This document shows, piece by piece, positions 4,898 to 56,754 of a stretch of 64,000 bases of DNA. Both the position numbers and the translations under genes were made by a program. The notes beneath the pieces are model-generated. The model saw nothing but the letters and a program-made list of their open reading frames with translations. It made no database searches and was not told where the DNA came from. The stretch's first letter is position 1. Each line of letters starts with the position of its first letter. This DNA comes from Craspedostauros australis (taxonomy: Eukaryota; Bacillariophyta; Bacillariophyceae; Mastogloiales; Achnanthaceae): the NCBI GenBank assembly GCA_026770025.1, contig JAMXDE010000011.1:1550001-1614000 (forward strand). The letters run 5' to 3'.

Positions 4898-5401
4898 CTT
4901 TGCAACTGCTTTATCGCCTTTCCGATTCCAACGATCTTGTTGTTGCGCTTCCTTGGCTCTCTCTGGAGTACTCGGATGGATCTTCGTGTCGGTCTTGATC
5001 CCTTCGTCAAGGAGCGAGAATGTGTGAGAGTGCCATCGACATCGACGTCCTCTGCAACGAACATGATGTCTGTCGTGGTTCCCTCGCCGCGTTGTTCATC
5101 ATTTGATCTGCTTTCTCCGTTTCACGCAATTGGTTCCTTTTGTTGGTTCTGTCGTGTCGACGCGTATCCAAGGACAGACGCTGCTAATAAAACACACAGC
5201 CAGAAATTTGACATCTTGCTTGCTTGTCGTAACTTCATCAACCTTCGCGTACACGGAGCAATGAGGAGTGTGGGTGTCTCTGGTGAGCAAGCAGGGTGAA
5301 CGAGCACCACTCGCCCTCTCTCCCCAGAAAACCATCATCCAAATCAATGTGCATGCTCTGCCTATGCAAACTAGTGTTCGTAGTTGCAGTTATCCAGTCC
5401 A
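4898..5401. other. Intergenic, MTR4 promoter side
   Basis: About 500 bases between the start of MTR4 and the end of the Lon-domain gene, both on the minus strand. Open frames here are short and match no family I recognise. Nothing beyond ordinary intergenic sequence is seen. Confidence 0.5.
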
Positions 5402-38344: not shown

Positions 38345-41300
38345 TCAGTCCACCCTGATCTTGCTGCTCATGTCGAAGTCATTGAATGCGTGCTCCAAAA
38401 GAATAGAAGTGTTCTGGTGTTTGGGCATGCCGTGGCTTCTTTCAAGAGCTGGATGTATCAAGACGCGGTGGACTTCTTGCTGATCCGACAGCCTCGAGAA
38501 CACATCGTGGAATGCTTTCCAAGAAAGCCAAAGCGACTCAGCCAGATTGAGAGGGAAGTCTGAAGGTCTTCTTCCAGCTACATTTTCGGATGCCTTGGTT
38601 GCTGACATGCCGAGGCTGGATCGTATCAAACGGAATGCGAACAAGATTGTATCGCCAATGGCCTTGGTTGTGTGTGCGGGGTTGTGCGTGACCTTGTACG
38701 CACTGGATCTCAGATGCGCCACAGTCTTCACTGCGCAGTACAGCATCATTTGGTAGAAGTTCGTCATGACCACGTCCACCCGATTTATGGCAGGATCGTA
38801 CAGGATCGGGGTGCATCTTGGCCGGACGAAAGTGCGCAGCCTGCGAAAGAATTGATCACCTTCATGGCCATCGCTGTCAATGGTGAGGCTGTTCTCAACC
38901 CTGCCGTTGTCGAAGCGAGAGTAGTCGATCATCACATCGCCCGTGTTAATGTCAAAAAGGAGGCCGCACCATGGGAAGAGGCGTGCCCCGGACGATGACA
39001 CAATGCATGATGTTCTGGGCGACTCAATACGGTTGACACCAGCATCGTCCATGTCCATGTCCACGGCGACATCAGTGTTCGTGTCAATGTCGGTGTTGGT
39101 GTCGATTTCTATGGCACCCTCGGCGTCCTGGCCATAGTGAAAGGTCGGTTGCTCTCGCCTGTCGGCGTGTGGATCTTGCGCCGCGTAAGCGAAGCTGTGA
39201 CTGACGGTGGACTTGTCTGTGTTGATGCTCATGCCAAGCTCGGGGACGCCCTTTCGGGTCTGTGCCACGAATTTCTTGATGTCGTCCTTGTCAGTCGAGA
39301 TGAGCAGGAAGTCATCCACCTGCCTTGCCAAGAGGCAAAGGGGCTGCTTGGCATGTAGAATTGGTGAGTGATTGTCATCGTTGGAGATCCAGCGTGCATC
39401 GCGGAATCGCCGAGGCAGAAGGTGTGTCTCCACATCCGCGTAGTACAAGTTGCACAACAGGTTGGCGATAATGCTGCCTTGTGGGATCCCGCTACATTGC
39501 AGCAGGTACTGCGGGCAAAATCGCCCGCACGTTACCACCACATTTTGCTGGATGTGTGTTTTGAGGAGATCCAGCAGAGCGATCTTGTTCGCGAGCTTCA
39601 TGTTGGTCTTGTTGATCAGAATGGAAGAACCGGCGAGGATCTGTCTGCCACGTTCCGGCGCTGTACAGTTGCTGAGGAGAGAGCGGTAGCTGTGGACTGG
39701 AGCAACCTTGTTCCACAGCGCATGTCGGTGAGCATCCTTGCCGCTCGTGCCGGTGTCAGTCTTGGACCGGACAGCAGCATCGCCGGCTGCAGGGATCACG
39801 ACGTATGATGATTCGATCATGTATTCGGAATCTGACAGCTGGCTCTCCACGAGTCGCAGAAGATGATCTTGTTTGATGGTGTCATAGCACTTTTTCACAT
39901 CGATGCTGGCAAAGTGGAGACTGCGAGACCCGTTGGGCGGCGCTGGAACTGCTTTCCATGCGGTGATGAAGCGCCGGTAACGAGGGTAGAATTCAATGAA
40001 CCCATCTAAGCCCGAGCCGGTGGAACCTGTTTTCCTTCTTATCTCATACTGGAGCACTTGAAGCAAGGGCCTCAGGCGCGAGTTTGTCGAACGTCGAGAG
40101 GCTATTTGGTTGTGATCGACGGGACGTCCAGCCATGTCGATGATCGGTCGCACGCCTGTGGCCTTCGGCAATAATTTTAGTGAGGATGCGTGCAATGCGT
40201 TCTCTTGTGCCAGCACAGATTGTAGCTTCTTGCGTGAGAGGATTTGGAAGTGGTCGTGTGTCAACTTCTTCATCGCCAATGATCGATAGAGAGACCACAC
40301 TGGCTTGCGGTAGTACGCCAGACGATTGTGGCTGAATTCTGTGTCAGTCACATGAAACGTGCATCGTATCAGTGGGATGATGAAGTTTCGGAACACCCAT
40401 CGCAGCACCGTCAAGGCCAAACGTTGCATAGCATCGTGGTCGGTTCTTGAGAATTTGGACCTGCTGGGTGTGCATTTGGAAGCCGGAGCTGCTGGGATCG
40501 ATCTGCGAATTCTGTGCTTGAATGACCTCTGCCGCTCCGCTTGGCATTGGCGCTGGAATGGCATCGTGCTCTGAGTTTGCGTTCCGCGACTGGAATTGTT
40601 ACTCTTGGATTCGAAAGTGTTCGGTGCTGAGTGCAACCATTTCATCTGCTTCGTCCTGAAGCCGTGCATTAAACTCTTGTTGGCAAGCTTTTCCTTCTTT
40701 CGCAGAGAAACCAAGGCTTGGACATTCCGTACAACGACGTCGAAGTTTTGTTTCGAACCCCAAAAGTTGATCGGGAAGATTGCTCTCAATGCACTGTTGA
40801 GGAATGACGCGACCCTGTCCGATTGGGTGTGGAGCTTCACCACATCGGTCAATTCCAATTCATCCCGTGACTTAGTTGCGCTTGCGCCACCTGCCGATGT
40901 CGTGGGTTGGAACCGCTCAATCAGCGGGCAATAGCGTTCCAAGATGCGATGGAAATTGCATTTGGAATGGTTCCTCAGGATCTCGACACACATTTGCGGC
41001 CCTTGGGTTGCGAGACGCCGCCTTCTCTTCCGCAGCGCGGTGCCATTGCTGTTCTGGAGCGGGATCATCGCTCGCAGCAAGTGCCTCCCGCCAATGGCCG
41101 TATTTAGGATGTTGTCACGTGGGAGCCCAACCGTCGGGGTGTACGTGTTCGAGTGCGTGTGTGAAATTGGGTTGGAATACGCTGGTGATGGTGAGCCGGA
41201 GCCAATGCATGAACTTGCGTTGGCGTGTAAAGCATTTGATGACGCATTGGGCTGAGCGAGCGACTGCCGTCTTCTCCGCTTTGTTGCTCTGGGTTGTTTG

Positions 41301-42307
41301 AGCATTGGCGGCGCAGGTTCCGACATGAGGTTTGTGCCGTCTTCATCTATTCTTTTCCTCTTCGTCGAATTCTGTGAATGGCACCGTTGGTCGCGAATGG
41401 AGTGATCAGTGGCTGCTTTCGCTCTCGGCGTACTCATAGGAGGGCTATATTGCCGAGGCAATGGCGGTCCACACAGGAGGATGTAGTTGCGATTGGCATG
41501 GGTAATCGTAGCGAAGCCATCCGCGGCGCTGTCTCGATTTTTCAATGGAATGAAAAGTCTGGTGTACAACAGCAGGACCCTGAAGATCTCATCGCCCACC
41601 GTCGCATGCAACAACCGGCAATAGTTGGATGTTTTGCAGAATGTGACGTTGGGGTTTGGGATAGTGCAGACGATTCCCGCTGCAGCATGGGCTGAAGGCT
41701 GGTAGCTTTGATCGGAGCGCTGTTGATGGTCGGAGGCGATGTTGTATCCTTCGATGAGAACATTGCGTCGGTGGATTGAATCAAATTGGGGTTCAATGTT
41801 GCGTGCCCTTTTTTCGTTGCTTGGGGCACGCCGCTGGCGATTCCTGTTGCGCTTCGGTGTTGCAGCAGACTCCTTCGCATTCTGAAGTAATGTGGCCCGC
41901 GGTTTTCGATGCCTGGACAGCATGGCAGCGATAGCCCCATCCACCAGGCTCGAAACTGATTCGTGGCAGGTTGGGGAAGCAGATCGATCCAGGCCTTGGG
42001 GGATTTCGCGGTATGGTGCCACGATGACTCCCGAGAGCTGGGCGTCGAGATAGATGGCGGGTCGTTGACTGCCTTGGTTGTCAACGTCAACGTCAACGTC
42101 AACGTCAACGTCGATGGCGGTGGATGGTGAGACGCCTTGCCGTCGCTGGTCATTGTCCAGCAGCGAGGGGCAGTGTCGTCGCAAGAAGTCGCTCAGATAT
42201 TCTGGATTCTGTCGTGTTGGATCCTCCACCATCGACCGGATCGCTCGTTTGATGCCATGGTGGTGAGGATTCTGTTCGCGTGGCGCTCTTCCTTGGCTTC
42301 TCCTCAT
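38345..42307 (-). CDS. TERT: Telomerase reverse transcriptase
   Basis: Single exon of 1,320 residues from the ATG at 42307 (the open frame extends further upstream without ATG). TEN domain at about 235-285: ATVGDEIFRVLLLYTRLF, then YILLCGPPLPRQY, strikingly like human TERT's VGDDVLVHLL...QVCGPPLY. A long Ser/Arg-rich linker follows, then the TRBD with T motif TFHVTDTEFSHNRLAYYRKP, RT motif 1/2 (LLPKATGVRPIIDM), motif A with catalytic D803 (DVKKCYD), motif B' (CSGIPQGSIIANLLCNLYY), motif C VDD with D998-D999 (RQVDDFLLISTD), motif D (GMSINTDKS) and motif E (FPWCGLLFD). The C-terminal extension ends with a DMSSKIRVD tail. TERT copies the telomerase RNA template to extend chromosome ends. A VDVDVD repeat at about 66-76 lies in the N-terminal linker. 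Looks intact. Confidence 0.95.
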   Translation of the reverse strand: MRRSQGRAPREQNPHHHGIKRAIRSMVEDPTRQNPEYLSDFLRRHCPSLLDNDQRRQGVSPSTAIDVDVDVDVDVDNQGSQRPAIYLDAQLSGVIVAPYREIPQGLDRSASPTCHESVSSLVDGAIAAMLSRHRKPRATLLQNAKESAATPKRNRNRQRRAPSNEKRARNIEPQFDSIHRRNVLIEGYNIASDHQQRSDQSYQPSAHAAAGIVCTIPNPNVTFCKTSNYCRLLHATVGDEIFRVLLLYTRLFIPLKNRDSAADGFATITHANRNYILLCGPPLPRQYSPPMSTPRAKAATDHSIRDQRCHSQNSTKRKRIDEDGTNLMSEPAPPMLKQPRATKRRRRQSLAQPNASSNALHANASSCIGSGSPSPAYSNPISHTHSNTYTPTVGLPRDNILNTAIGGRHLLRAMIPLQNSNGTALRKRRRRLATQGPQMCVEILRNHSKCNFHRILERYCPLIERFQPTTSAGGASATKSRDELELTDVVKLHTQSDRVASFLNSALRAIFPINFWGSKQNFDVVVRNVQALVSLRKKEKLANKSLMHGFRTKQMKWLHSAPNTFESKSNNSSRGTQTQSTMPFQRQCQAERQRSFKHRIRRSIPAAPASKCTPSRSKFSRTDHDAMQRLALTVLRWVFRNFIIPLIRCTFHVTDTEFSHNRLAYYRKPVWSLYRSLAMKKLTHDHFQILSRKKLQSVLAQENALHASSLKLLPKATGVRPIIDMAGRPVDHNQIASRRSTNSRLRPLLQVLQYEIRRKTGSTGSGLDGFIEFYPRYRRFITAWKAVPAPPNGSRSLHFASIDVKKCYDTIKQDHLLRLVESQLSDSEYMIESSYVVIPAAGDAAVRSKTDTGTSGKDAHRHALWNKVAPVHSYRSLLSNCTAPERGRQILAGSSILINKTNMKLANKIALLDLLKTHIQQNVVVTCGRFCPQYLLQCSGIPQGSIIANLLCNLYYADVETHLLPRRFRDARWISNDDNHSPILHAKQPLCLLARQVDDFLLISTDKDDIKKFVAQTRKGVPELGMSINTDKSTVSHSFAYAAQDPHADRREQPTFHYGQDAEGAIEIDTNTDIDTNTDVAVDMDMDDAGVNRIESPRTSCIVSSSGARLFPWCGLLFDINTGDVMIDYSRFDNGRVENSLTIDSDGHEGDQFFRRLRTFVRPRCTPILYDPAINRVDVVMTNFYQMMLYCAVKTVAHLRSSAYKVTHNPAHTTKAIGDTILFAFRLIRSSLGMSATKASENVAGRRPSDFPLNLAESLWLSWKAFHDVFSRLSDQQEVHRVLIHPALERSHGMPKHQNTSILLEHAFNDFDMSSKIRVD
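42078..42114. repeat. GTCAAC hexamer repeat in the TERT coding region
   Basis: About five tandem tcaacg units. On the minus strand they encode the alternating Val-Asp run in the N-terminal linker of TERT, so length change here would keep the frame. Confidence 0.85.
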
Positions 42308-43308
42308 GGATGGATGTGTCGATGCTGTTGGCTCCGCGCGGAGTGCGAATACGAGAGTCCTCCTGCGAATGCTGGAACACAAGAGATGGGCTCGAAGCAC
42401 AAGTTCAACCGTACTTATATTTGCGTATGCCACTTGTATGGTGCGAGAGTACGTATACCAGGTGCGTACAACTATTCGCGTATGTCTGCATGTGTGCACA
42501 AAGGCCGGAGTCAAATCGAACCGAAAGTCCCCGCAGAAGTGATTCACTCTGCGACCTAATCTCTTCGTCCTTGTGGCGACCTCTTGGTCATACTTCCGGA
42601 TCGGCCGGTCTTCGTCGAGGATGCAGGTTGTGTTGGCCGAGTCGCCGAGGTGGGTGGTAGAGCTGCGATGGCAGCAACGTTCGCAGTTCTGCGTGTGTGA
42701 TTGGTGTTGCTACTGTTCTGTCGCTGTTGGTGATCGGATTTTTCTGTTGCTGTCTGTGTTCTGTGCTCATGGCGTGATGCGTGTGCTGGTCGGAGTAAAC
42801 CTCTTTGCCCTGTCGTTGCCCTCCTACGAAAGTGTTTGTGCACATCTGTCTCCGCCTCCAAACCGACAGGTCGCACCATACAACTGCTGGTGCCCTCGTG
42901 ATACCGCCCAAAAACGGTAAAAGCGATTAGACGCCACCGATTGTGGGTTCCACCGGGACCGGAATGGACGCGTGCCGCTGCCATCTGTTTGGACTGTGTC
43001 AAATGCAACCAAAAGTCATCACAACCAAAAGAGTAAAGTGTCAGAGAGTTTTGTTGTTGCAGCTTCTCGCTTGCTTGCTCACGTTGCGATGGTCGAAAAA
43101 AGAATACGAGTACCGGTGAGGTGTAAAGAACCGATGAGAACGTCGTCGTGCCTCCACACAAAGTCACACGAAGACCCAGCTTCGCCACGAATTGTGTCCC
43201 TGGGCACAAAAACTTGTTGTTTCTTGGTGAGTCCAGTCTTGAGAAAGGTCTGAAACTCTACTATCGAGCAGTATCTCGATTTGTGGAGCACAATGGGTGG
43301 AGTGATAC
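42308..43308. other. TERT upstream region up to the transposon
   Basis: About 1.0 kb between the TERT start and the left end of element A, so the TERT promoter should lie here, immediately next to the insertion. A minus-strand open frame of 217 codons (43209-42556) is Ser/Thr/Arg-rich with no motif and is not called. Confidence 0.45.
43305..43308. other. Target-site duplication of element A, left (ATAC)
   Basis: ATAC directly abuts the left TIR and is matched by ATAC right after the right TIR at 55480-55483. Confidence 0.85.
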
Positions 43309-43462
43309 GAGCCCCCCGAGTGAGTCGACCTGCACTTTGTCCTGGGACTCAACATCTTTTTTCTCGGATATCCAAACAAATCACATATTCATAATCCTCA
43401 TATTCTAAAACCAAATAATGATTCAAATTACTTTCCGGTTAGACCTTAGTTTAAGTTTTATG
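43309..43462 (+). repeat. Left terminal inverted repeat of element A
   Basis: About 154 bases from GAGCCCCCCGAG to aagttttat. It pairs with 55327-55479 nearly throughout, including A-specific bases such as CCTGGGACTC and CTCGGATATCC that differ from element B. Confidence 0.9.
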
Positions 43463-45133
43463 GTCCCATCAAGGTGCTAATTTTTAGACTGATTTAGGGA
43501 CTCAGCCTTTGACAGACGACTACATCGATCCAATTTAACCCTTTGCTGTTCTTTGTTTCAGCAAGTTTGTTCCGATTTTGAATTGTTTAGTCTCTTTTTC
43601 AGGTGTTCGGACGACACCATCCAACAGTCCATCCACGATAGCACTAGTTGTAGAATGTTGGGGTAAGCGGTGAATGCGCTTTTACATGCATTCAACCATG
43701 TGCTCGGACGATCCGTCATCGACGTCACGAAATTGGATACTTCGTCATGAAACACCAATGATATCACGATGCGCAACATCAGGTCTGCTTCGTCGTGGCG
43801 AAGTGGTTGAGCGGGGTTGGTACTCCTCGAGTGTTTTATGTTGTGCTCCTTTTGGACAGTCACTACAATTCTTGGTAAATCTCCACATCCCCCAATATGT
43901 GAGGCTGGTTGAGAGTGGCAAACTTGACACACCAACATGGAAGTGGAGCCACACCAAAAAAACATCCACAATGGCCGTCGAACGGTATGCTTGGCGCCGC
44001 AACAACCAGCCGGCCAATTCAAGATTCAAGCATATCGCCGTCACCGCCATGCAACCTTTGGTGGGTGGACGAGCGGAGGCGGGAAGAGGGGTTGATTTGG
44101 GGCCGTCGTAGGCCCCAGAAATACGGCCACAATTTGGCTCCAAATCGGCTCGTTGGTTTTGGCCTGTGTGTGGCACACACAGGTCATATCAGCGCCTATG
44201 GATGCGCAAGATGCCTCAAGGAGGCCAAGATGAAGGCACCCTCGAAGTTTGAGGGTCGCGGAGCACCGGGAAGGTGTCCGCGCGGAGGCAAAGGTGGTTT
44301 TGAGGAGTTTTGGTTGGGGCTCGCCTGGCACCGGTCGCGTGGCTTTGGCTGTGAGGGGCGATGGGACGACGCCCCTCAATCGCAAAGCCACCCATACAAG
44401 GTGCGTGCGACATCAATTGAAGATGCACGTCGTGAAGTGTGCGCCATGGATATGGTCTACAAGAGGCTGCAGCTGACCATATCTGCAGAATGGTCGTTGT
44501 TGGTGGGAGCAGAAAATGCACCACCACATCATCATATGGAGGTGTACCACGTCGGCCATGCACTCCCAGCCCATTCTGGATGCATCCGCGTGTCGCCATG
44601 GAGTGTGGGAATGCACGAGGAGCGCTTGGAGGGGCTGAAAGGGTCATATGGATGAGGTATGGATCCGTATCCATACCGCATCCGGATTGACAACGTTTTT
44701 TGGCAATTGCTCTGTTTCAGTGTGTGGCTGCATTGCTGCATGCAGAGCCAATGTCTGTGGCCATCCTTCATGGAGCGGATAGCTGGGGGGTATTCAGAGC
44801 GAATGGTATGCACAGTTTGCTGAAATACAAGGATGATGATAATGATCATGTGTGCTCATTGGAGGGCAACATTGTGGCATCAGCATTTTTTTCCGAATCC
44901 ACCACACAAAACACAGCAAACCAACATGACTTCCAAAATATTTTCTATACTCATTTAACTTCAATATTCTGATAAACCGATAATCATGCGTATTAATGCA
45001 ATGTTTAGATTTAATTGTAAGCGATGTGTTGTTGAGATATGGCATGACAAGCAGATATTGGATGTGTTTTTGGATGGCCTCTAGACTCGTTGTAGTAGCA
45101 TGGCCTGCCACCCACAAAACTCCACAACTAGTG
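43463..45133. other. Conserved segment 3' of the transposase in element A
   Basis: About 1.67 kb with a counterpart in element B (49381-51075). The two copies can be aligned by eye over most of this length, but with more change than in the transposase. A plus-strand frame in A (43909-44655) shares runs with B such as QWPSNG, SPSPPCN, DERR and LIWGRR. B lacks the same long open frame, and the opposite strand shares similar runs, so a second gene is only a possibility. A part near 44600-45000 is AT-rich and leads to the transposase stop. Confidence 0.45.
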
Positions 45134-48100
45134 TTATCGCGGCAGTACGTGCCCATCACAATTTTCCGTCTCATCACCCAACACAGCCTCACTTTCTGTG
45201 TTGGCCTTGATTGTGTCAGCATCACACCACATCTGATGATCCAGCTCCTCTTCTTCTCTCTGCAACTCCTCTTCTCTCTGCTCCTCCTCTGTTGCAGCTG
45301 GCGCATTGTGGGTCGCCACGATTACAGATGCTGTTGCTGTGCTTGTTGGGTTGGTGTTGGTGTTGGTTTCCGCCTTGATGAGAGAGGCCTCCTTCTTGTC
45401 CTTGCGTTGTTTGGCGTTGTACGCTGCAGACAGCGACGCTTTCACGCGCATGGGATTTGCGTGCAGTTGTACGTACCAGTCAGTTTTGGTCCTGTTGTCG
45501 TCCATCAATTGTTCGTGTGCTTCGTGTTCGGATGGTCTGTTTTTTGGGTCCTTCGCGGACGCTTCACTGATGTCCTTCAATTTGTCCGCGATGTAGTCTG
45601 GTAGTTCCGCTGGTTTGCGCGTTGTTTTGCTCGCCCAGCCTGGCACTGCGAGTAGTGGGTGTTCGGTTTCCGCGGTCTGGTCTTGTAGCACTGTGGTGTG
45701 ATCGGATGGTAGATGTTGTTGTCCGTCTGCGATGGCTTTACCGAACGCCAGCCCCTTGCTCTCCGCCGCTGTGCGCCCGAGTTTTCGCGTCTTGTCCGTC
45801 TTCCTGAACGATTCGGACGTTATCGGCAGCTTGTCGGACGTGAACGTTCTGTCCTCGAGGACACCCAGCTCGTTGACAATCCAGCCATCCCATTCGGTGC
45901 TCTTGACCACGACGTCTTCCGTGATACCAGATGCAGCCACCAACCGCGCCTGGTCATCGTCATACTTCACCTCGTGAGTTTGACGTACCTGTTGTCCGTT
46001 CGCGCGGAATCGTCGTTTTGGTGCGCCAGGAAGCGTGGTGATGTTGCCTTGGAGGGATGACGCGTTGACCAGTACCGTGGTGGTACCCGCGATGTTACCA
46101 GCTTTCAGCGCAAGGAAGAGTTGGAACGGGGTCTTGATGTTGCGTCCACTTTGCACGTATTTTCGCAGTACACGGGTGATGTACGCGAAGTGGGTGTCCA
46201 GCATGCTCTTACCAGTTTGGGCCTCTGTGTAGATCCATGCGATGATTTTGGCCGCCTTTCGTGTCGCAAGGTTCTTGTTGAGTACCGATGTGATGAGCGC
46301 GATGTGCTCGTGACTGGCAAAGCAACACGCGTTATCGCTCTGGAAGATGATTTCAGTCACGGATGGGTGAATGTCTTTGACCGTTTTTTGCAGGATGTCA
46401 AGTAGTCCACCAACTTGAAGTGTGTCTTGTGTCGGTCTTCCGCCGACCACAATGTCAATGAATTGATAAGTAAAAATGTCGTTGCGACACGTGATGACCA
46501 TCGCCCCAAGCAGTGACATTCCCTTCTTCCCCCAATATTCTTGTTGGGCTTCGCTTTGGCCTGTCGGTAGAATTTTTTGCTTATGGTCGAGTACCACATA
46601 GGCTCTTTCAGGCTTATCATTGAGTTCGGATTGATAAAAGGCGATTTGTCGGAATTGCACTTTGGCACGCACTTTGTGAGCCATGTAGTTAACAATTTCG
46701 TTGGCGAATCCCGGCGCCGCCGCAAGCATTGATTGCAATTCGTCCGTGTGTTCTGCGAGTTCGTTGTCCTTAAGCATTTCGACGAATGGGACAAAACGAT
46801 CATTCACAAATCGCATTGCTGATCCACAACGGTTGCATACTTTACGTGGTTGTTCGGTCGCGGTGGTGGGAGAAGTGTCATTTGTGATGGTTGGCGTGTC
46901 GCTTTTGAGAGTGTTCTTCTTGCGCTTGTGCTTGTTGGTGCGTGGTTTGCGTTGATTGGAGGATGTGGTTGTTGCCTTCTTCTTCTCCTTTCCGGTGATG
47001 AGTGCGAACGCAGCCGAATGCATGGGGTCATCACACTGAAGCTGCATGTGGGAGGCGGAGAATTCCCATTTGAGGAACACAACAAGCAGCTCGAGCGCAT
47101 GCAAGAGGGAATCGGCTGTGCGCACATGTGGAGAGATGACGTCATCTGGGTTGTCGTTGTCGCTGTCGCTGTCGCTCTCGTCATTGGCATCGTTTTGTTC
47201 CTCCCCGTCTGTTTCATACTTAGCCTTCAGTAGGTCTACTAGGCGCGAAATTGCCTGTTTGAGTTTCTCCGTCGCCATCCAGAAGTAACTCTCAAAGGAA
47301 GAGAGGCCCGTCTTGATCTTGCTTTTGCGTGTTAGTAGGTGGGTCATGGTGGTGAAAGCGGGCATTCCCACTGGGCGGTTGGTCGTAGACGAGTACATGT
47401 CGAATAGTTGTTCGATAGTCGTGCTTCCTCGATCGAACACCGGAACATTTTCAAAATTGACACCGCCATACTGTACTGTGTGACTCAAACCTGCCTTGTA
47501 TGTTGCAGTGGTCATGAGGAAAGATGTCACACCAGACAGGTCACAGGCAGGCACACGATACTGGAGAACTCTTGGCGGGATGATTTTGCCGCGGCTGAAC
47601 ATTTCAAAAGCATGTCGCAAGGTTGTTAGTTGACTCCGGGTCATAGTAGCGCGTGCAGGCTTGACACGAATACGTTGGTCCTCTGGAAGAGTCTCCACAT
47701 GATGAGACAGGATTGCAGAGCTGTTAGTGAATGTCGTAGACGCAGCAAGCACAGCCCTGGATGCGTTAGCCAGTGTCTTTTCCCCCCTCACACAGAGGGT
47801 GTATAGATTCGGACCGAGTGTAGTTGGTGGAAGGTCCACGCGAGCACGGACAAACGACACCACCTGTTGCATCTGGCGAGTTGGCAATGCCTCACAAGGG
47901 AGCAAGACACCCCAGAGTGCAGTAACCACAGTAACCCATACGCGTATCACGTCCCACCATGTTTGCCTGTCACGCTGGCCACCAAGCACGAATCCCGTGG
48001 GAGGCATGGAATTAAACACGTCCATGTTGATGTCATCGGTGAGCTCCTCCATCACGCGGATCACAGCATCACGCCTCCAGCTCCCCTCCTCTGATGTATC

Positions 48101-48682
48101 ACCCTCGAACTTGCCGCCCCTCCTGCCCCTGCTGGCGCGCATCTGTTCCTCCTTGTCGTCCATGTAGGTGCTGTCACTGTCATGGGAGGGATCCGCGTAG
48201 CCACCAGCAACAACAGTGTTGCAACGCCGGGGAAGCCTCGCCGGTGGGGCAGGCTCGACAGGTGGTGCAACGTCGGCCACAGCAGGCGGGGGTGGCGCGT
48301 TCACGACAACGCTCACCGAAGTCCCATCGCCAACACCTCGTCCCTCGGATCGCACCCTGACGTTGGAGTTGTCGTAGGCGCCTCCGTTGTTGTCGAGGAT
48401 GTGAACGTACACATGTAGCTCGCGAGCGTGCGCATGCGTACCGTTCGGGACGAGGCTGCCATCTGCTGCGAGCATCGGCTTCACATCGATCACTTGCGTG
48501 ATGATGCTCGGCTTCCTCAACGTAGCGGATGGCTTGTCAGGCAACAGTTGATCGGCGGTTGGCAACAGGAACCCCTTCGAATCGACAGGAGGAGCAGGCA
48601 CACGGTGAGCAGAACGCAGTTTCTTACTGGGGGAGGGGTTAGCATCCTTGGAGTGGGCCTTGGCAGCGGTAGAGGTAGACAT
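45134..48682 (-). CDS. Putative DDD-type transposase of element A
   Basis: Uninterrupted, 1,182 residues from the ATG at 48682. The N-terminal half is Pro/Asp-rich with many charged residues. A basic nuclear-localisation-like run (RKPRTNKHKRKKN) near 590 precedes CNRCGSAM (C-x2-C, about 615), a possible zinc-binding site. A putative RNase H-fold core follows: D699 in VVLDHKQKI, with EYWGKKGMSLLGAMVI after it; D783 in IIFQSDNACCF; and D829 in the GKSMLDTHF block. Each acid sits after a hydrophobic strand or in a conserved block, and all three match in element B. Cut-and-paste activity is inferred from these and from the TIR/TSD structure. No family name can be given with confidence. It appears intact, suggesting recent movement. 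Confidence 0.72.
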   Translation of the reverse strand: MSTSTAAKAHSKDANPSPSKKLRSAHRVPAPPVDSKGFLLPTADQLLPDKPSATLRKPSIITQVIDVKPMLAADGSLVPNGTHAHARELHVYVHILDNNGGAYDNSNVRVRSEGRGVGDGTSVSVVVNAPPPPAVADVAPPVEPAPPARLPRRCNTVVAGGYADPSHDSDSTYMDDKEEQMRASRGRRGGKFEGDTSEEGSWRRDAVIRVMEELTDDINMDVFNSMPPTGFVLGGQRDRQTWWDVIRVWVTVVTALWGVLLPCEALPTRQMQQVVSFVRARVDLPPTTLGPNLYTLCVRGEKTLANASRAVLAASTTFTNSSAILSHHVETLPEDQRIRVKPARATMTRSQLTTLRHAFEMFSRGKIIPPRVLQYRVPACDLSGVTSFLMTTATYKAGLSHTVQYGGVNFENVPVFDRGSTTIEQLFDMYSSTTNRPVGMPAFTTMTHLLTRKSKIKTGLSSFESYFWMATEKLKQAISRLVDLLKAKYETDGEEQNDANDESDSDSDNDNPDDVISPHVRTADSLLHALELLVVFLKWEFSASHMQLQCDDPMHSAAFALITGKEKKKATTTSSNQRKPRTNKHKRKKNTLKSDTPTITNDTSPTTATEQPRKVCNRCGSAMRFVNDRFVPFVEMLKDNELAEHTDELQSMLAAAPGFANEIVNYMAHKVRAKVQFRQIAFYQSELNDKPERAYVVLDHKQKILPTGQSEAQQEYWGKKGMSLLGAMVITCRNDIFTYQFIDIVVGGRPTQDTLQVGGLLDILQKTVKDIHPSVTEIIFQSDNACCFASHEHIALITSVLNKNLATRKAAKIIAWIYTEAQTGKSMLDTHFAYITRVLRKYVQSGRNIKTPFQLFLALKAGNIAGTTTVLVNASSLQGNITTLPGAPKRRFRANGQQVRQTHEVKYDDDQARLVAASGITEDVVVKSTEWDGWIVNELGVLEDRTFTSDKLPITSESFRKTDKTRKLGRTAAESKGLAFGKAIADGQQHLPSDHTTVLQDQTAETEHPLLAVPGWASKTTRKPAELPDYIADKLKDISEASAKDPKNRPSEHEAHEQLMDDNRTKTDWYVQLHANPMRVKASLSAAYNAKQRKDKKEASLIKAETNTNTNPTSTATASVIVATHNAPAATEEEQREEELQREEEELDHQMWCDADTIKANTESEAVLGDETENCDGHVLPR

Positions 48683-48978
48683 GGTGAAGTTGTTGCTGTA
48701 GAGTATAGTTGTTGGCTGGTTGGATGTGATGAACTGCACTGGTCTGAGATGAAGTGAGGAAGGAGAGCACAGGATGACAGGTCGACCATTCGTTGACAAC
48801 AACAACAACAACAACAACTACTACTACTACACTACCACCACACTACCAGAACGAGCACTAACATTGAACACAAGAGCGAGCACGCATGGAATTGGCGAGG
48901 AAAGTTGTGAAATGGAGCGAAAGTGTGGCGATGATGTGTGAATGGTGAGGGGGTGTCGATGATGTTGGATGCGATGTG

Positions 48979-49027
48979 TTTTGTGTGATGTGTTTTGTGT
49001 GATGCGTTTTGTGTGATGTGTTTTGTG
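48979..49027. repeat. 14-bp tandem repeat, element A (about four units)
   Basis: Units follow the pattern tgatgtgttttgtg with single-base variants. Element B has about five units at 54909-54979. Confidence 0.8.
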
Positions 49028-49222
49028 ACGAGCAAAATGTGAGATCATGCGCCACATGCTAACGTGTATTTAACGCGTACCAACCGAACGACATCTTCGA
49101 CACCGTCTTCGTGACTGATTACCATACGATAAATAATCAAGAACATCACAGAACCTTCTGAGAAACAAGTAGGAGTTTCATGGGGTTCGACCCATACGAC
49201 TCAAAAATGCCTCGATGGGCTC

Positions 49223-49226
49223 ATAA
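49223..49226. other. Target-site duplication of element B, left (ATAA)
   Basis: ATAA abuts the left end of B and is repeated at 55327-55330. Removing B and one ATAA restores a continuous element A TIR end (gggctcATAAaactta). Confidence 0.85.
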
Positions 49227-49380
49227 GAGCCCGATCAGTGAGTCGACCTGCACTTTGTTATGGGACTCAACAACATTTTTCTTGGATATCCAAACCGACC
49301 GCATATTCATAATCCTCATATTCTAAAACCAAATACTGGTACAAAATACCTTTCTGTTAGACCTTATTTTAAGTTTTATG
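49227..49380 (+). repeat. Left terminal inverted repeat of element B
   Basis: About 154 bases pairing with 55173-55326 by eye with few differences; both share B-specific bases. Confidence 0.9.
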
Positions 49381-51075
49381 GACCCATCAAGGTGCAGATT
49401 TTTAGACTGCTTTAGGGACTGGGCCTTTTGCGTCCGACTACATCGATCCAACTTAACCCTTTGCTGTTCTTCGTTTCAGCAAGTTTGTTCCGATTTTGAA
49501 TTGTTTAGTCTCTTTTTGAGGTGTTCCGATGAGACCATCCCACACCTCCTCCACGATAGCGCTAGTTGTAGAGTTTGGGGAGAAGCGGCGAGTTCGCGTT
49601 TACATCCATTCTACCCTATGTTTGCCTGATCCGTCATCTACGTCACCAGACTGGCTGCTGCGTCATGAACCACCAATCATAGCACGATGTGAATCATCCT
49701 TGGCTACGTTTCGTCGTAACAGAATGGTTGAGTTGCATTGGTACTCTCGAAGTGTTTTGTGTGATGCTTCTTTCGTACATTTGGTAAGGTTATGAGTAAA
49801 TACCGGGGACCCCAAGATGTGAGGCCGGTCGGGAGCGCAAAACTCGACACAACCACATGACAATGGTGCAACACCAAAAAAAACTCACAATGGCCGTCCA
49901 ACGGCAACCCCCGCGCCGCAACAACCAGCGGTCCACCGGCAAATACAAGCACATCGCCGTCACCGCCATGCAACCCTTGGTGGGAGGACGAGCGGAGGCT
50001 GCGAGAGCGGTTGATTTGGGGCCGCCGCAGCCCTCCGCGCAAACGTCTCCAAATTGCGGCAGATAAGCTTGTTGGATGCAGCCTGTGTATTCCATGCACA
50101 GGCCACACCAACACCTGCAAATGGGCAAGGCGCATCCAGGAGGGCATCGCCAACGCGCCCATGAAGTCTCAGGCTTGGGGAGGACCAGGAAGGCATCCGC
50201 GCGGAGGAATTGGTGGAGGGCAAGAGTTTTGTTGGTGGGGTCGCGGTGTACCTGGCATGTGTCTTTCGCAGTGAGGGGACAGCATCATCGAGCTGCCCAA
50301 TCGCCAAGTCACCCATACAAGGCCCGTGCGGCATCGCCTGAAGATGCACGTCGCGGAGTTCGAGCTGCTGCAATGGTCTGGAAGAGGCTGTGGCATGGAA
50401 TGAGTGCAGACAGGTCCGTTTTGGTGGGGCACCCCAAATCACCAGTGCCATCACCAAATGGAGGTGTGCCATTGGGACCATCCATGCCCATCCCACTCTG
50501 GATGCATCAGCGTGTCGGCAGGGAGTGTGGGAATGCACGAGGGGCGCATGGAGGGGCTGAAAGGGTCATGTGGATGTGATATGGATCCGTATCCACACTG
50601 CATCCGGCTTGCAAATCGTTTTTTGACATCGCTCTTTTTCAGTGTATGGACACTTTGGGGTATGCAATGTGGCATAAACGTTCTGTCCTTCATGGAGTGG
50701 ATAGATGGAGAACATACAGAGCCATTGTGATGCGCAGTTTGCCAAAATACAAGCATGATGATGATGATCATGGGTGCTGAGTGGAGGGCAACATTGCTTG
50801 ATCGAATTTTTTTTCCATCCACCACGCAACTGTGTGGTGGACCAACATGAAATTAAAAATAGCTTCTATGTCAATTTAACTTCAATATTCTGAATAAACG
50901 AAAGTCAGGCGTATGAATGCACTGTTTATATTTGATTGTAAACAATGTGTTGTTGAGATATAGCATGATAAGCAGATATTTGGATGGTTTTGGGGTGGGC
51001 TCTAGATAGTCTACATATCACGACCCATCGCCCACAAAACTCCACAACTAGCGTTATCGTGGTGATGCACAGCCA
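49381..51075. other. Conserved segment 3' of the transposase in element B
   Basis: Counterpart of 43463-45133. It has plus-strand frames that match A in runs such as LIWGRR and HPYKARA, but the frames are not open over the whole length. Whether it codes is not settled. Confidence 0.45.
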
Positions 51076-54000
51076 TCACAAAATTTCCGTCTCATCACCC
51101 AACACAGCCTCACTTTCTGTGTTGGCCTTCATTGTGTGAGCATCACACCACATCTGCTGGTCCAATTCCTCTTCCTCTCTCTGCAACTCCTCTTCTCTCT
51201 GCTCCTCCTCTGTTGCAGCTGGTGCATTGGAGGTCGCCACAATTGCAGGTGCAGGTGCTATTGCTTTGCTTGTTGTTTTGGCTTCTGTCTTGATGGGAGC
51301 AGCCTCCTTCTTCTGTTTGCGTTGTTTGGCACTGTACGCTGCAAACAGTGATGCTTTCACGCGCATGGGGTGAGCATGCAGTTGTACGTACCAGTCAGTT
51401 TTGGCCCGTTCATCGTCCATCAATTGCTCATGTGCTTCGTGTTCGGATGGTCTGTTTTTCGGGTCCTTCGCGGACGCTTCACTGATGTCCTTCAATTTGT
51501 CCGCGATGTAGTCTGGTAGCTTCGCTGGTTTGCGTGTTGTTTTGCTCGCCCAGCCTTGCACAGCGAGCGGTGGGTGTTCTGTTTCTGCGGTTTGGTCTTG
51601 TAACGCCGTGGTGTGATCATACGGCAGGTTTCCTTGTGCATCGTCGATGGCTTTGCCGAACGCCAGCCCCTTGCTCTCTGCCGCTGTGCGCCCGAGTTTT
51701 CGCGTCTTGTCCGTCTTCCTGAATGATTCGGACGTAATTGCCGGCTTGTCGGACGTGAACGTTCTGTCCTCGAGGACACCCAGCTCGTTGAGCGCCCAGC
51801 CTTCCCATTCGGTGCTCTTGACCACGACGTCTTCCGTGATACCAGACGCAGCCACCAGCCGTGCCTGGTCATCGTCATACTTCACCTCGTGAGTCATACG
51901 TACCTGTTGCCCACTTGCGCGGAATCGTCGTTTTGGTGCGCCAGGAAGCGTGGTGATGTTGCCTTGGAGGGATGACGCGTTGACTAGCACCGTTGTCGTA
52001 CCTGCGATGCCACCAGCTTTCAGTGCTTCGTAGAGTTGGCGGGCGGTCTTGATGTCCTTGCCACTTTGCACGTATTTTCGCAGTACACGTGTGATGAACG
52101 CGAAGTGGGTGTCCAACATGCTCTTACCGGTTTGGGCCTCTGTGTAGATCCATGCGATGATTTTGGCCGCCTTTCGTGTCACAAGGTTCTTGTTGAGTAC
52201 CGATGTGATGAGCGCGATGTGCTCGTGACTGGCGAAGCAACACGCGTTATCGCTCTGTAGGATAATTTCAGTCACGGATGGGAGAATTTCTTTGACCTTT
52301 TTTTGCACAATGTCAAGTAGTCCACCAACTTGAAGTGTGTCTTGTGTGGGTCTTCCACCAACCACAATGTCAATGAATCGATAAGTAAAAATGTCGTTTT
52401 CGCACGTGATGACCATCGCCCCAAGCAGTGACATCCCCTTCTTCCCCCAATATTCTTGTTGGGCTTCGCCTTGGCCGGTTGGTAGAATTTTTTGCTTATG
52501 GTCGAGTACCACATGGGCTCTTTGTGGATTGTTGTTCGTCGTGGATTGATAAAAGGCAATTTGTCTGAATTGCACTTTGGCACGCACTTTGTGAGCCATG
52601 TAGTTAACAATTTCGTTGGCGAATCCCGGTGCCGCCGCAAGCATTGATTGCAATTCGTCCTTGTGTTCTGTGAGTTCGTTGTCCTTAAGCATTGTGACAA
52701 AAGGAACAAAACGATCATCCACAAATCGCATTGCTGCGCCACATCTGTTGCATACTCTACGTGGTTGTTCGGTTGAGGTGGTGGGAGGAATGTCAATTGT
52801 GATGGTTGGATTGTCATTTGTGAGAGTGTTCTTCTTGCGCTTGTGCTTGTTGGTGCGTGGTTTGCGTTGGTTGGTTGATGTGGTTGTTGTCTTCTTCTCC
52901 TTTTCGGTGGTGAGAGCGAACGCGGCCGAATGCATGGGATCGTCGCACTTAAGCTGCATGTGCGACGCGGTGAATTCCCATTTAACGAACACCACAAGCA
53001 GTTCGAGTGCATGCAAGAGAGAATCAGCAGTGCGCACATGCTGCGCAATGACGTCATCCGGCTCGTCGTCATTGTGGCTCTCGTCATTGGCATCGTTTTT
53101 CTCCTCCGCGTCCGCATCATACTTAGCCTTCAGCAGGTCTACTAGGCGCGAAATCGCCTGTTTTAGTTTCTGTGTTGCCATCCAGAAGTAACTCTCGAAG
53201 GAAGAAAGACCCGTCTTGATCTTGCTTTTGCGTGTGAGGAGGTTCGTCATGAGGGTGAACGCGGGCCTTCCCACTGGGTTGCTGGTCGTGGAGGAGTACA
53301 TATCGAATAATTGTTTGATGGTTGTGCTTCCGCGATCGAACACCGGGACATTGTCAAATTTGACACCTCCATACTGTACCATGTGACTTAGACCTGCCTT
53401 GTATGTTGCAGTGCTCATGAGGAATGACGTGACGCCAGACAGGTCACAGGCAGGCACGCGATACTGGAGAACTCGCGATGGGATGACCTCGCCGCGTCCG
53501 AACATGTCAAAATCGCGCCGCAACGTCGTGAGCTGACTCCGGGTCATTGTAGCGCGTCCCGGCTCGACACGATTGCGTTGTTCCTCCGGAAGAGTCTTCA
53601 CGTGACAAGACAGGATTGCGGAGCTGTTAGTGAATGACGTAGATGCAGCGAGCACAGCTCTGGCAGCGTTGGCCAGTGTCGCTTCTCCCCTAACACATAG
53701 GGTGTATAGATTTAGACCAAGTGTAGTTGGCGGTAGATCCGCGCGAGCGCGGACAAACGCCACCACCTGTTGCATCTGGCGCGTTGGCAATTCCTCGTGA
53801 GGGAGCAAGACACCCCAGAGCGCAGTAGCTACAGTGACCCACACACGTGTTAAGTGCCACCAGGTTGGCCTGTCGCACTTGGCGCCAAGCATGAATCCCG
53901 TGGCAGGCATGCAATTAAACACGTCCATGTCGATGTCATCGGTGAGCTCCTCCATCACGCGGATCACAGCATCACGCCTCCAGCTCCCCTCCTCTGATGT

Positions 54001-54585
54001 ATCACCCTCGAACTTGCCGCCCCTCCTGCCCCTGCCGGCGCGCATCTGTTCCTCCTTGTCGTCCATGTAGGTGCTGTCACTGTCAATAGAGGGATCTGTG
54101 TACCCCCCGGCAACTACAGTGTTGCAGCGCCGGGGAAGCCTCCCTGGTGGGGTAGGCTCGACAGGTGGAGCAACGTCAGGCACAGAAGGCAGGGGTGGCG
54201 CGTTGACGACAACGCTCACCACTGTTCCATCGCCGACACCTCGTCCCTCTGATCGCACCTTGACGTTGGAGTCGTCAAAGACGCCTCCGTTGTCGTGGAG
54301 GATGTGAATGTACACATGCAGCTCACTGGCGTGCGCATGCGTACCGTTCGGGACGAGGCTGCCATCCGCTGCATGCATCGGCTTCACATCGATCACTTGC
54401 GTGATGGTGGTTGGCTTCCTCAACGCAGCGGATGGCTTGTCAGGCAACAGTTGCTCCGCGGTTGGGAGCAAGTTTCCCTTGGAGTCGAATGGAGGAGCAG
54501 ATACAGGGTAAGTAGAACACGGCTTCTTACGAGGAGAGGGGTTGCCATCCTTGGAGAGGGCCTTGGCAGCAGCAGAGGGAAACAT
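51076..54585 (-). CDS. Putative DDD-type transposase of element B
   Basis: Uninterrupted, 1,169 residues from the ATG at 54585. It aligns with the element A protein along its full length with a few small gaps; by eye most residues agree. The three acids align at D695, D779 and D825, each four residues earlier than in A. The basic run RKPRTNKHKRKKN and CNRCGAAM are kept. Spacing between the acids is 83 and 45 residues in both. Full-length reading frames in two diverged copies argue for purifying selection or recent activity. Same caution on family name as for A. Confidence 0.72.
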   Translation of the reverse strand: MFPSAAAKALSKDGNPSPRKKPCSTYPVSAPPFDSKGNLLPTAEQLLPDKPSAALRKPTTITQVIDVKPMHAADGSLVPNGTHAHASELHVYIHILHDNGGVFDDSNVKVRSEGRGVGDGTVVSVVVNAPPLPSVPDVAPPVEPTPPGRLPRRCNTVVAGGYTDPSIDSDSTYMDDKEEQMRAGRGRRGGKFEGDTSEEGSWRRDAVIRVMEELTDDIDMDVFNCMPATGFMLGAKCDRPTWWHLTRVWVTVATALWGVLLPHEELPTRQMQQVVAFVRARADLPPTTLGLNLYTLCVRGEATLANAARAVLAASTSFTNSSAILSCHVKTLPEEQRNRVEPGRATMTRSQLTTLRRDFDMFGRGEVIPSRVLQYRVPACDLSGVTSFLMSTATYKAGLSHMVQYGGVKFDNVPVFDRGSTTIKQLFDMYSSTTSNPVGRPAFTLMTNLLTRKSKIKTGLSSFESYFWMATQKLKQAISRLVDLLKAKYDADAEEKNDANDESHNDDEPDDVIAQHVRTADSLLHALELLVVFVKWEFTASHMQLKCDDPMHSAAFALTTEKEKKTTTTSTNQRKPRTNKHKRKKNTLTNDNPTITIDIPPTTSTEQPRRVCNRCGAAMRFVDDRFVPFVTMLKDNELTEHKDELQSMLAAAPGFANEIVNYMAHKVRAKVQFRQIAFYQSTTNNNPQRAHVVLDHKQKILPTGQGEAQQEYWGKKGMSLLGAMVITCENDIFTYRFIDIVVGGRPTQDTLQVGGLLDIVQKKVKEILPSVTEIILQSDNACCFASHEHIALITSVLNKNLVTRKAAKIIAWIYTEAQTGKSMLDTHFAFITRVLRKYVQSGKDIKTARQLYEALKAGGIAGTTTVLVNASSLQGNITTLPGAPKRRFRASGQQVRMTHEVKYDDDQARLVAASGITEDVVVKSTEWEGWALNELGVLEDRTFTSDKPAITSESFRKTDKTRKLGRTAAESKGLAFGKAIDDAQGNLPYDHTTALQDQTAETEHPPLAVQGWASKTTRKPAKLPDYIADKLKDISEASAKDPKNRPSEHEAHEQLMDDERAKTDWYVQLHAHPMRVKASLFAAYSAKQRKQKKEAAPIKTEAKTTSKAIAPAPAIVATSNAPAATEEEQREEELQREEEELDQQMWCDAHTMKANTESEAVLGDETEIL

Positions 54586-55172
54586 GGTGGAATTGTTGGC
54601 GGAGAGTAGTGTTGTTTGCTAGGTGGATGTGATGAACTGCACAGGTTGAGACGAAGTGAGGAAGGAGAGCATACGATGAATGGTCGACCATTTGTTGACA
54701 ACAACAACAACAACAACAACAACGACTACTACTACTACACGACGCCACTACCAGGGCGAGCACAAGCATGGAACACAACAGCGAGTACGCATGACATTGG
54801 CGAAGAAAGTTGCGAAATAGAGCGAAAGTGTGGCGATGATGTTTGAATTTGTGAACGGATGCCGATGATGTTTGAATTTGTGAACGGATGTCGATGATGT
54901 TGTGTGTGTGATGTGTTTTGTGTGATGTGTTTTGTGTGATGTGTTTTGTGTGATGTGTTTTGTGTCATGTGTTTTGTGACGAGCAAAATGTGAGATCATG
55001 TCGCAGATGCTAACGTGTATTTAACGCGTACCAACCGAACGACATCTTCGACGTCGTCTCCGTGACTGAGTACCTTACGATAAATAAACGAGAACATCAA
55101 AGAACTTTCTGAGAAACAAGCAGGAGTTTCATGAGGTGCGACCCATACGACTAAAAAACACCTTTGACCGCC
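54586..55172 (-). promoter_or_regulatory. Upstream region of transposase B with tandem repeats
   Basis: Carries an AAC triplet run (54699-54722), a duplicated block gatgatgtttgaatttgtga (about 54835-54895), the 14-base tandem repeat, and the same gtatttaacgcgtacc block as A near 55016-55031. Presumed promoter and transposase-binding region. Confidence 0.5.
54909..54979. repeat. 14-bp tandem repeat, element B (about five units)
   Basis: Units tgatgtgttttgtg, nearly perfect; the copy number is one higher than in A. Confidence 0.8.
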
Positions 55173-55326
55173 CATAAAACTTAAAATAAGGTCTAACCGA
55201 AAAGTAATTTGTACCAGTATTTGGTTTTAGAACATGAGGATTATGAATATGCAGTCGGTTTGGATCTACTATAAAAATGTTGTTGAGTCCCATAACAAAG
55301 TGCAGGTCGACTCACTGATCGGGCTC
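55173..55326 (-). repeat. Right terminal inverted repeat of element B
   Basis: Ends ctcactgatcgggctc at 55326, the exact complement of B's left end. Confidence 0.9.
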
Positions 55327-55479
55327 ATAAAACTTAAAATAAGGTCTAACCGGAAAGTGATTTGAATCAGTATTTGGTTTTAGAATATGGGGATTATGAA
55401 TATGTGATTTGTTTGGATATCCGAGAAAAAAGGTGTTGAGTCCCAGGACAAAGTGCAGGTCGACTCACTCGGGGGGCTC
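55327..55479 (-). repeat. Right terminal inverted repeat of element A, remaining part
   Basis: Starts with the ATAA copy shared with B's TSD and ends ctcactcggggggctc. It pairs with 43309-43462. B split A at the inner edge of this repeat. Confidence 0.9.
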
Positions 55480-56754
55480 ATACATCAGAACAGAGTCGCG
55501 TACACTGGCACGATGCATTCCATTGGATCCAGACAAGCAGAGATCGAAGGTGATGATCACTCTCGAGAGCACGGACAGGGGATGTCTTGTTGGTGTCACT
55601 GGAGTACTGGTCCTGTTCGTGTTCAGGTACTCTACGAACTATTATACTACTTTACTATACTTGACTGTACTTTAAGAAGCGGTCAGGTACTGAGCCCTTC
55701 GTACTATATACTCTATCTATGGACACGACAGTATTCCTTTCCAACAACAGGGAGTTACTGCTGCGTGAACATGAAGTCTCTTCTGCCCTGTCAGAGACAC
55801 GATAAGAAACGAACTGGAACCAGGACTGCCTTCTGTGAAAAGCAGGGACGAGCCCATGGGTCCGTACCTGGTGGGTGCGACTTCTACCTGGTACAGTGAG
55901 AGCGTTTCCGTGAGGCGGCTGTTCATTCTGTGCAGTTTTTGTTGTCCGGTTGTCATAAATATAGTTCAAAGAAGTGCTTGTTGCGTTCATGGCCTTCTCT
56001 TCCTTGACTTGGCCAGATTCAATTAACGACCAAGAAAGCACATTAAGTGGCCGAATGAGAGCATGCACAAGGCCTGTCGCACTGTCCAAACAAGTGCAAT
56101 AATGTGTTGTCCGCTCAGTCGAAGGGGGTGCAAAAGTGATGCCGCGAGCTGGCTTGAAAATGTTCTGGCACCATTCACTGTAGCCGGCATTCGAATGCGA
56201 ACAATTGTGATCATTCTGGTTGGCTCCCTTGGTCACGCAGAAGTGATAAAACCGGCAACAAGAATGTCTGCTCGGAACAACATTCGCCCTCACTTCCCCA
56301 ACACCGCAGTCCTGCGCGACGTGGCTGTCACCGTAGCACGCGCAACGCATCACCATTCGTCCGCGCTATGCAACAAACGTGCGTCTGCGCGAACTCATCC
56401 GTGAAGATCACCCATGGCAAAACTGGCGATTGGCAGTGGCAGCGCCCCTTCGGGAGTACCAACCGGAGTACGCGTCCGACAATCGGGGTGTTGTGATGCT
56501 TGTCCGTATGCATGGTACTTGAATGTGCGAGCCACGCAGCGGAGTAGAATTGCGGTGGACGCGTTCGTGCATCGTTGCTCTCTTTCTCGTCCAGTGCCCT
56601 TCTCTGTGGTGTTTTTTTGTCGTACTCGTCCTCTCGCTGGCAACGCCACAGTGAAACAGACTGGGATGGTTGAGACAGTTGTTACAGGTGTGACAATCGA
56701 GACAACCCAGACAAGGATACGGCATTACAATCGAAAGAACGAGGTCTTCACATC

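Follow-up and report, generated by a model that had tools for sequence, protein, structure and literature searches.

The stretch of DNA analysed here, which will be referred to as the window, consists of 64,000 nucleotides from contig JAMXDE010000011.1 of the diatom Craspedostauros australis, and all window positions and strands given below refer to it. At positions 43309-55479 the window contains a nested pair of elements belonging to a single family, a candidate pair of recently active DNA transposons, in which one copy lies inside the other and each copy carries one large gene for a putative transposase. A first-pass annotation, made from the letters of this stretch, had described the pair as two nested copies of one family of DNA transposons with terminal inverted repeats (TIRs), and in our analysis the boundaries, the target-site duplications (TSDs), the relatives found throughout the genome and the unoccupied form of the insertion site all agree with this description.

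Two nested elements in the window

The features of the pair are as follows, with the basis for each in brackets (ORF, open reading frame; dN/dS, ratio of nonsynonymous to synonymous substitution rates).

43305-43308, no strand: TSD ATAC of the outer element, left copy (boundaries read directly)
43309-55479, - strand: outer element, subfamily B, split by the inner element (repeat search and boundaries read directly)
43309-43467, + strand: outer left TIR, at the gene's downstream end (repeat search)
45134-48682, - strand: outer transposase gene, 1,182 aa, intact (ORF list, dN/dS)
46586-46588, - strand: first aspartate codon of the outer copy, aligned with inner D695 (computed from alignment)
46334-46336, - strand: second aspartate codon of the outer copy, aligned with D779 (computed from alignment)
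46196-46198, - strand: third aspartate codon of the outer copy, aligned with D825 (computed from alignment)
49223-49226, no strand: TSD ATAA of the inner element, left copy (boundaries read directly)
49227-55326, - strand: inner element, subfamily A, 6,100 bp (boundaries read directly, TIR alignment)
49227-49394, + strand: inner left TIR (repeat search)
51076-54585, - strand: inner transposase gene, 1,169 aa, intact (ORF list, dN/dS)
52501-52503, - strand: D695 codon of the inner copy (computed from alignment)
52249-52251, - strand: D779 codon of the inner copy (computed from alignment)
52111-52113, - strand: D825 codon of the inner copy (computed from alignment)
55159-55326, - strand: inner right TIR (repeat search)
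55327-55330, no strand: TSD ATAA of the inner element, right copy (boundaries read directly)
55327-55479, - strand: outer right TIR, the 153 bp past the inner element (repeat search, TIR alignment)
55480-55483, no strand: TSD ATAC of the outer element, right copy (boundaries read directly)

Both elements start with GAGCCC, and the outer one, after subtraction of the inner element and of one TSD copy, measures 6,067 bp. The inverted arms detected by the repeat search were 162 nt long and 95% complementary in the outer element (3-4 flanking TSD bases being included) and 171 nt long and 91% complementary in the inner element. The single large frame per copy reported in the first-pass annotation is present in both, on the - strand and uninterrupted; the 1,182 aa of the outer frame are counted from ATG, the listed ORF beginning at TTG and encoding 1,227 aa, and the inner and outer proteins are 85% alike. 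The aspartates named in that annotation as D699, D783 and D829 are numbered on the outer copy from its ATG, and correspond to D695, D779 and D825 of the inner copy, whose numbering is used here.

The inner element is inserted at TTAT, close to the internal end of the right TIR of the outer element, and in the window TTAT stands on either side of it. In all nine of the B-subfamily copies that were examined, the same site is present in its unoccupied form, TTTTAAGTTTTATG[GA]GCCCATC, and in two of them (L017 and L022) the letters are identical to those flanking the inner element. As all nine copies retain the unoccupied site, the insertion of the inner element is real, and the nesting is a true self-insertion within one family.

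The neighbouring telomerase reverse transcriptase gene is located at 38345-42547 (- strand) in one frame (Pfam matches Telomerase_RBD, 1.8e-30, RVT_1 and TERT_C), and a distance of 762 bp separates the listed start of its ORF from the outer transposon, which begins upstream of it.

The family and its target site in the host genome

The host genome (74.8 Mb in 90 contigs) was searched for other members of this family. One of its contigs encodes a RuBisCO large subunit, the best PDB matches of which (7yk5, 5mz2, 5n9z and 5oya; 1,066-1,072 bits) are diatom enzymes, in keeping with a diatom host. The TIR query gave 45 matches, and a search with the inner protein gave 555 candidates, the best-scoring 40 of which were scored; in view of these 45 TIR matches and 40 scored protein matches, the nested elements cannot be due to chance. 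No stop was found in 37 of the 40, one of the 37 being partial, although these matches lean towards intact copies because the best-scoring ones were taken. The 30 copies that were fetched fall into four subfamilies (A-D), with the inner copy in A and the outer copy in B, and in seven rows of their comparison the subfamilies were 83-86% apart and 94-100% alike within. Between subfamilies dN/dS was 0.22-0.27 in all six pairs over approximately 1,160 codons, and the large frame, as judged from these ratios, is under purifying selection.

A degenerate pattern based upon the protein motifs gave 230 exact sites (123 + 107), diverged relatives included, and its reversed control gave none. Exact TIR ends, counted where the first pattern place is not G, numbered 179 (78 + 98 + 1 + 2; control hits 0, 1, 0, 0), and their greedy pairing into 50 pairs and 79 single ends corresponds to about 129 elements, pairs of less than 4 kb being excluded and short derivatives thus lying outside the scope of this count. 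In 34 of the 50 pairs the span was 6,037-6,144 bp including 34 flanking bases, indicating elements of 6,003-6,110 bp; two others were up to 6,634 bp and 14 were longer. The family is numerous and young, and its main subfamilies are well preserved. Two deeper branches are represented by intact members, viz. branch E by L077 (1,197 aa) and branch F by L060 (1,309 aa); compared with the inner copy, L077 is 45% identical, and L060 is 29% identical in one comparison and 32% in another.

Identical 4-bp flanks were observed in 14 of the 16 copies that were readable at both ends (20 were tried, by pattern), and the remaining two (L027 and L030) have a damaged end. Across the 179 ends, TA is central in the 4-bp site in 176 cases, and the TSDs used include ATAC, ATAA, CTAG, GTAT and, in L024, TTAA; the target is NTAN, with the outer bases free. 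An E relative (L059) with other termini (GACCCGG) and a TIR of 167 nt has the TSD GTAT, which is also NTAN. Hence, of the 4-bp TSDs ATAC and ATAA noted in the first-pass annotation, the duplications themselves are borne out, but they do not constitute sites in their own right, as both are cases of the family-wide NTAN and TTAA is used as well.

The flanks of the 179 ends were read by eye, and ten stretches at ten junctions were compared with TIR references. Four insertions inside a family TIR were found, the window pair included. They are located at TIR position ~150-153 in the window; at ~155 on C15 (L065), at the same TTTTAT site as in the window and in a diverged TIR; at 131-134 on C12 (L071, L021); and at ~23-27 on C33 (L072, L012). 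Alignments also support two cases in which an element stands end-to-end with a relative, one NTAN being shared, on C44 (L073) and on C75 (L067), where the partner shows 87% similarity to one end of L059, the E relative. Two further end-to-end candidates were recognized by eye only, viz. C52 (L064) and C24:828876 (L066), which shares CACTCAAGTGGGTC with the end of L077 and gave no alignment to the TIR references. The junction stretches L069 and L070 were not insertions into or against family ends. If such TIRs make up 0.057% of the genome and the elements number about 129, the binomial P for four hits inside TIRs is 1.1e-6, and the same test with ten times more TIR DNA gives P 0.007; it was the window pair that prompted this question, and there are three in-TIR insertions without it. 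Insertions inside TIRs are more frequent than chance gives; bound ends may attract insertions, or such insertions may simply be tolerated. At another locus (G000 C15:1147311 and C15:1162523) the sequences on both sides match subterminal DNA of the family, and positions 49053-49082 of the window hold both strings, so this is one more self-insertion, into the subterminal part, at the site TTAC.

A number of other observations were made on individual copies. Subfamilies B (L015) and C (L019) are 92% alike over the 1500 bp lying 3' of the transposase gene, compared to 87% in the gene, and the other five subfamily pairs are 73-78% alike in these 1500 bp; the elements look mosaic, and such a pattern would be consistent with recombination between subfamilies. 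A second gene in this 3' region was considered and rejected, as the longest antisense frame is not the same from one subfamily to the next and the candidates are near neutral (dN/dS 0.82 for B vs. C over 250 codons and 0.86 for D vs. A over 235 codons). The long 3' interruptions of four copies (stretches L039, L041, L048 and L049) were likewise rejected as self-insertions since they had no family match; by eye, these stretches resemble long terminal repeat (LTR) retrotransposon sequence. A frame at 4852-6042 (- strand) of L059, beside the E relative at G000 C1, resembles by eye a Copia-type polyprotein. Lastly, at L055 (the 3' end of copy L027) and at the 5' end of L030 the outermost TIR bases are lost and palindromes of flanking DNA are present (22 bp and perfect in L055; 12+2+12 in L030), as would be left if a broken end had been repaired by fold-back.

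The transposase and the proposed mechanism

An alignment of five proteins was examined, comprising the two window copies, L078, the E member L077 and the F member L060. D695, D779 and D825 are invariant in all five rows, down to 29% identity, and the conservation of these residues, which had been observed within the window pair, thus extends to relatives at 45% and 29% identity. The previously given spacings of 83 and 45 residues hold in both window copies in the protein alignment; they are shared by four rows in all, and in F they become 84 (between the first two aspartates) and 109 (between the second and the third). However, D739, D749 and E816 are, among others, as invariant as the three named residues, and therefore the third acid may be E816. 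The proposal of a DDD triad thus retains its support from conservation, but these three aspartates are not exclusive in being conserved, and the second is asparagine in two of 30 close copies. Integrases carry an H-H-C-C zinc motif. In the family protein H542, H552, C612 and C615 are invariant in the five rows, forming the pattern H-x9/10-H-x17-64-C-x2-C ahead of the core, and this motif may be compared, as a likeness only, to the integrase zinc module.

Based upon the long TIRs, the 4-bp NTAN TSDs, the near-identical copies, the selected frame and the nested insertion with its unoccupied site, the family is very probably one of autonomous cut-and-paste TIR transposons of the DDD/E type with one gene. 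The transposase would bind the 150-170-bp TIRs and cut at GAGCCC by means of an RNase H-type acidic triad, D695/D779/D825 or one with E816 as its third member. The ends would then be joined to the target at points offset by 4 bp between its two strands, with TA in the centre, and gap repair would yield the NTAN duplication; the inner copy would have carried out such an insertion inside the right TIR of the outer element. Cut-and-paste movement, rather than copying, is assumed here from the anatomy of the TIRs and TSDs.

Several results weigh against this interpretation. D779 is replaced by N in two of the 30 close copies (L020 and L029), it is the only one of the acids checked in these copies that varies, and such a change should inactivate a catalytic aspartate; the frames of both copies are otherwise full-length, and they may have moved in trans. 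The deeper branches are more decayed, with stops in 16 of 28 E-like rows (at least 78% identity) and 14 of 36 F rows. No significant match to the protein was obtained in Pfam (best E 0.028), NCBIfam (only weak matches), PHROGs (best E 0.038) or PDB sequences (best E 0.19), none of the matches being to a transposase. The first-pass annotation had looked to an RNase H fold in which the three acids meet, and no fold was obtained by either of the two predictions run, which had a mean pLDDT (predicted local distance difference test score) of 34.8 for residues 600-960 alone and 37.4 when 251 residues of the two window copies were used. A Foldseek search with the second, low-confidence model gave no match at E <= 0.001, a result which is uninformative because of the low confidence of the query model. 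The predicted succession of strands and helices could be that of an RNase H core, which at such confidence proves nothing.

It is also very improbable that the pair moved as one composite unit instead of arising by two separate insertions. The complete structure is bounded by an intact pair of outer TIRs and an intact outer TSD, as a composite unit would be, but the inner element has its own TSD and its site is unoccupied in nine of nine B copies. Further, the three other confirmed in-TIR insertions have other partners, two of them at other sites, and no second copy of the pair was met among the elements that were read, which did not include every element.

Relation to known superfamilies

By kind this is an ordinary family of autonomous TIR transposons, probably in or near Sola, a superfamily with which it was compared by description only. 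The 2009 abstract founding Sola reportedly names the DDD transposase and the 4-bp TSD. Sola is described as having a DDD transposase, 4-bp TSDs, most elements of 2-9 kb and TIRs of 11-1124 bp (PMC10741241), Sola1 elements have a mean size of 5,445 bp in bivalves (PMC10294476), and Sola is listed in a diatom (PMC7466962). The family resembles this description in its 4-bp TSD, found in 14 of 16 readable copies and both window copies, and in its size of 6.1 kb and TIRs of ~160-170 bp, although the fit of size and TIR length is weak because many groups fit. The three aspartates are present in five of five rows, with the reservations on E816 and D779N given above. Unlike the Sola2 sites in amoebozoa, which are given as AWWT or ATAT, AAAT and ATTT in PMC3627910, where six Sola2 families are named, the target here has a fixed central TA with free outer bases. 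Sola therefore leads by description, as its published descriptors fit, and there is about an even chance that the family belongs to it or its close kin, as a new family of this named group that by size is nearest to Sola1. The mention of Sola in the first-pass annotation as a known group with 4-bp TSDs accords with PMC10741241, and membership in it is a lead only.

It is less likely, and should be regarded as tentative, that the family forms a superfamily of its own, which would consist of DDD/E transposases of ~1.2 kaa with H-H-C-C ahead of the core, an NTAN target and complexes drawn to the ends of family members, with the consequence that insertions would accumulate within and beside one another's TIRs. 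The strict NTAN target, the H-H-C-C motif and the absence of matches in Pfam, NCBIfam, PHROGs and PDB sequences speak for this possibility. The collections searched covered viral, prokaryote, phage and plasmid sequences as well as general protein models, and no relative was found in viral contigs (protein and alignment searches), in prokaryote genomes (alignment search) or in phages and plasmids (tblastn with residues 600-960). Patterns built on motifs of invertebrate proteins, and another built on the third motif of the family itself, likewise found none in viral contigs, and the one match to the invertebrate motifs in prokaryote genomes, in a stretch full of stops, was taken as chance. However, as these collections hold no eukaryote genomes and none is a eukaryote transposon library, the absence of matches is weak evidence of novelty. 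The invertebrate proteins in question, with SDNAGCYH and GKGxCD, look related to this family, whose E branch has the motifs SDNAGCF and GKGRID, and this counts against a separate superfamily.

The remaining probability lies with other named groups. A 4-bp TSD with a central TA is shared with Kolobok and piggyBac, and TTAA is among the sites used; in contrast to these groups, which are TTAA-specific according to PMC9587614, any NTAN is accepted here, and there is no Pfam match. Thus, piggyBac was rejected on its TTAA restriction, and Kolobok on the TSDs (ATAC, ATAA, CTAG, GTAT and others) and on the lack, in the five aligned rows, of the C/DxxH motif between the second and third acids. This motif, placed between the second D and the last acid in hAT, P, MuDR, Dada and Kolobok (PMC9587614), and the 4-bp TSD here, also led to the rejection of hAT, P, MuDR and Dada. 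Tc1/mariner has a similarly strict TA in its target, but was rejected since 4 bp are duplicated here and not the 2-bp TA (PMC10741241); there was also no Pfam match. The H-H-C-C motif ahead of the acids recalls the integrase-type groups Ginger, IS3EU and IS481EU; unlike them, the protein here is much larger and matches no Pfam integrase model. Ginger1 shares the 4-bp TSD, whereas the ends of Banshee are TGT and not GAGCCC (both from PMC10045372). For Academ, Novosib, Zator, EnSpm/Chapaev, Zisupton and Ginger, nothing matched within whatever Pfam holds for them.

Should the family lie outside Sola, one superfamily would be added. The TA-centred 4-bp target, together with the insertions into the ends of relatives, makes the choice of target site by the transposase testable. 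Being numerous and young, with well-preserved main subfamilies, the family is a candidate for a native active transposon in this alga, and as such it may provide a genetic tool.

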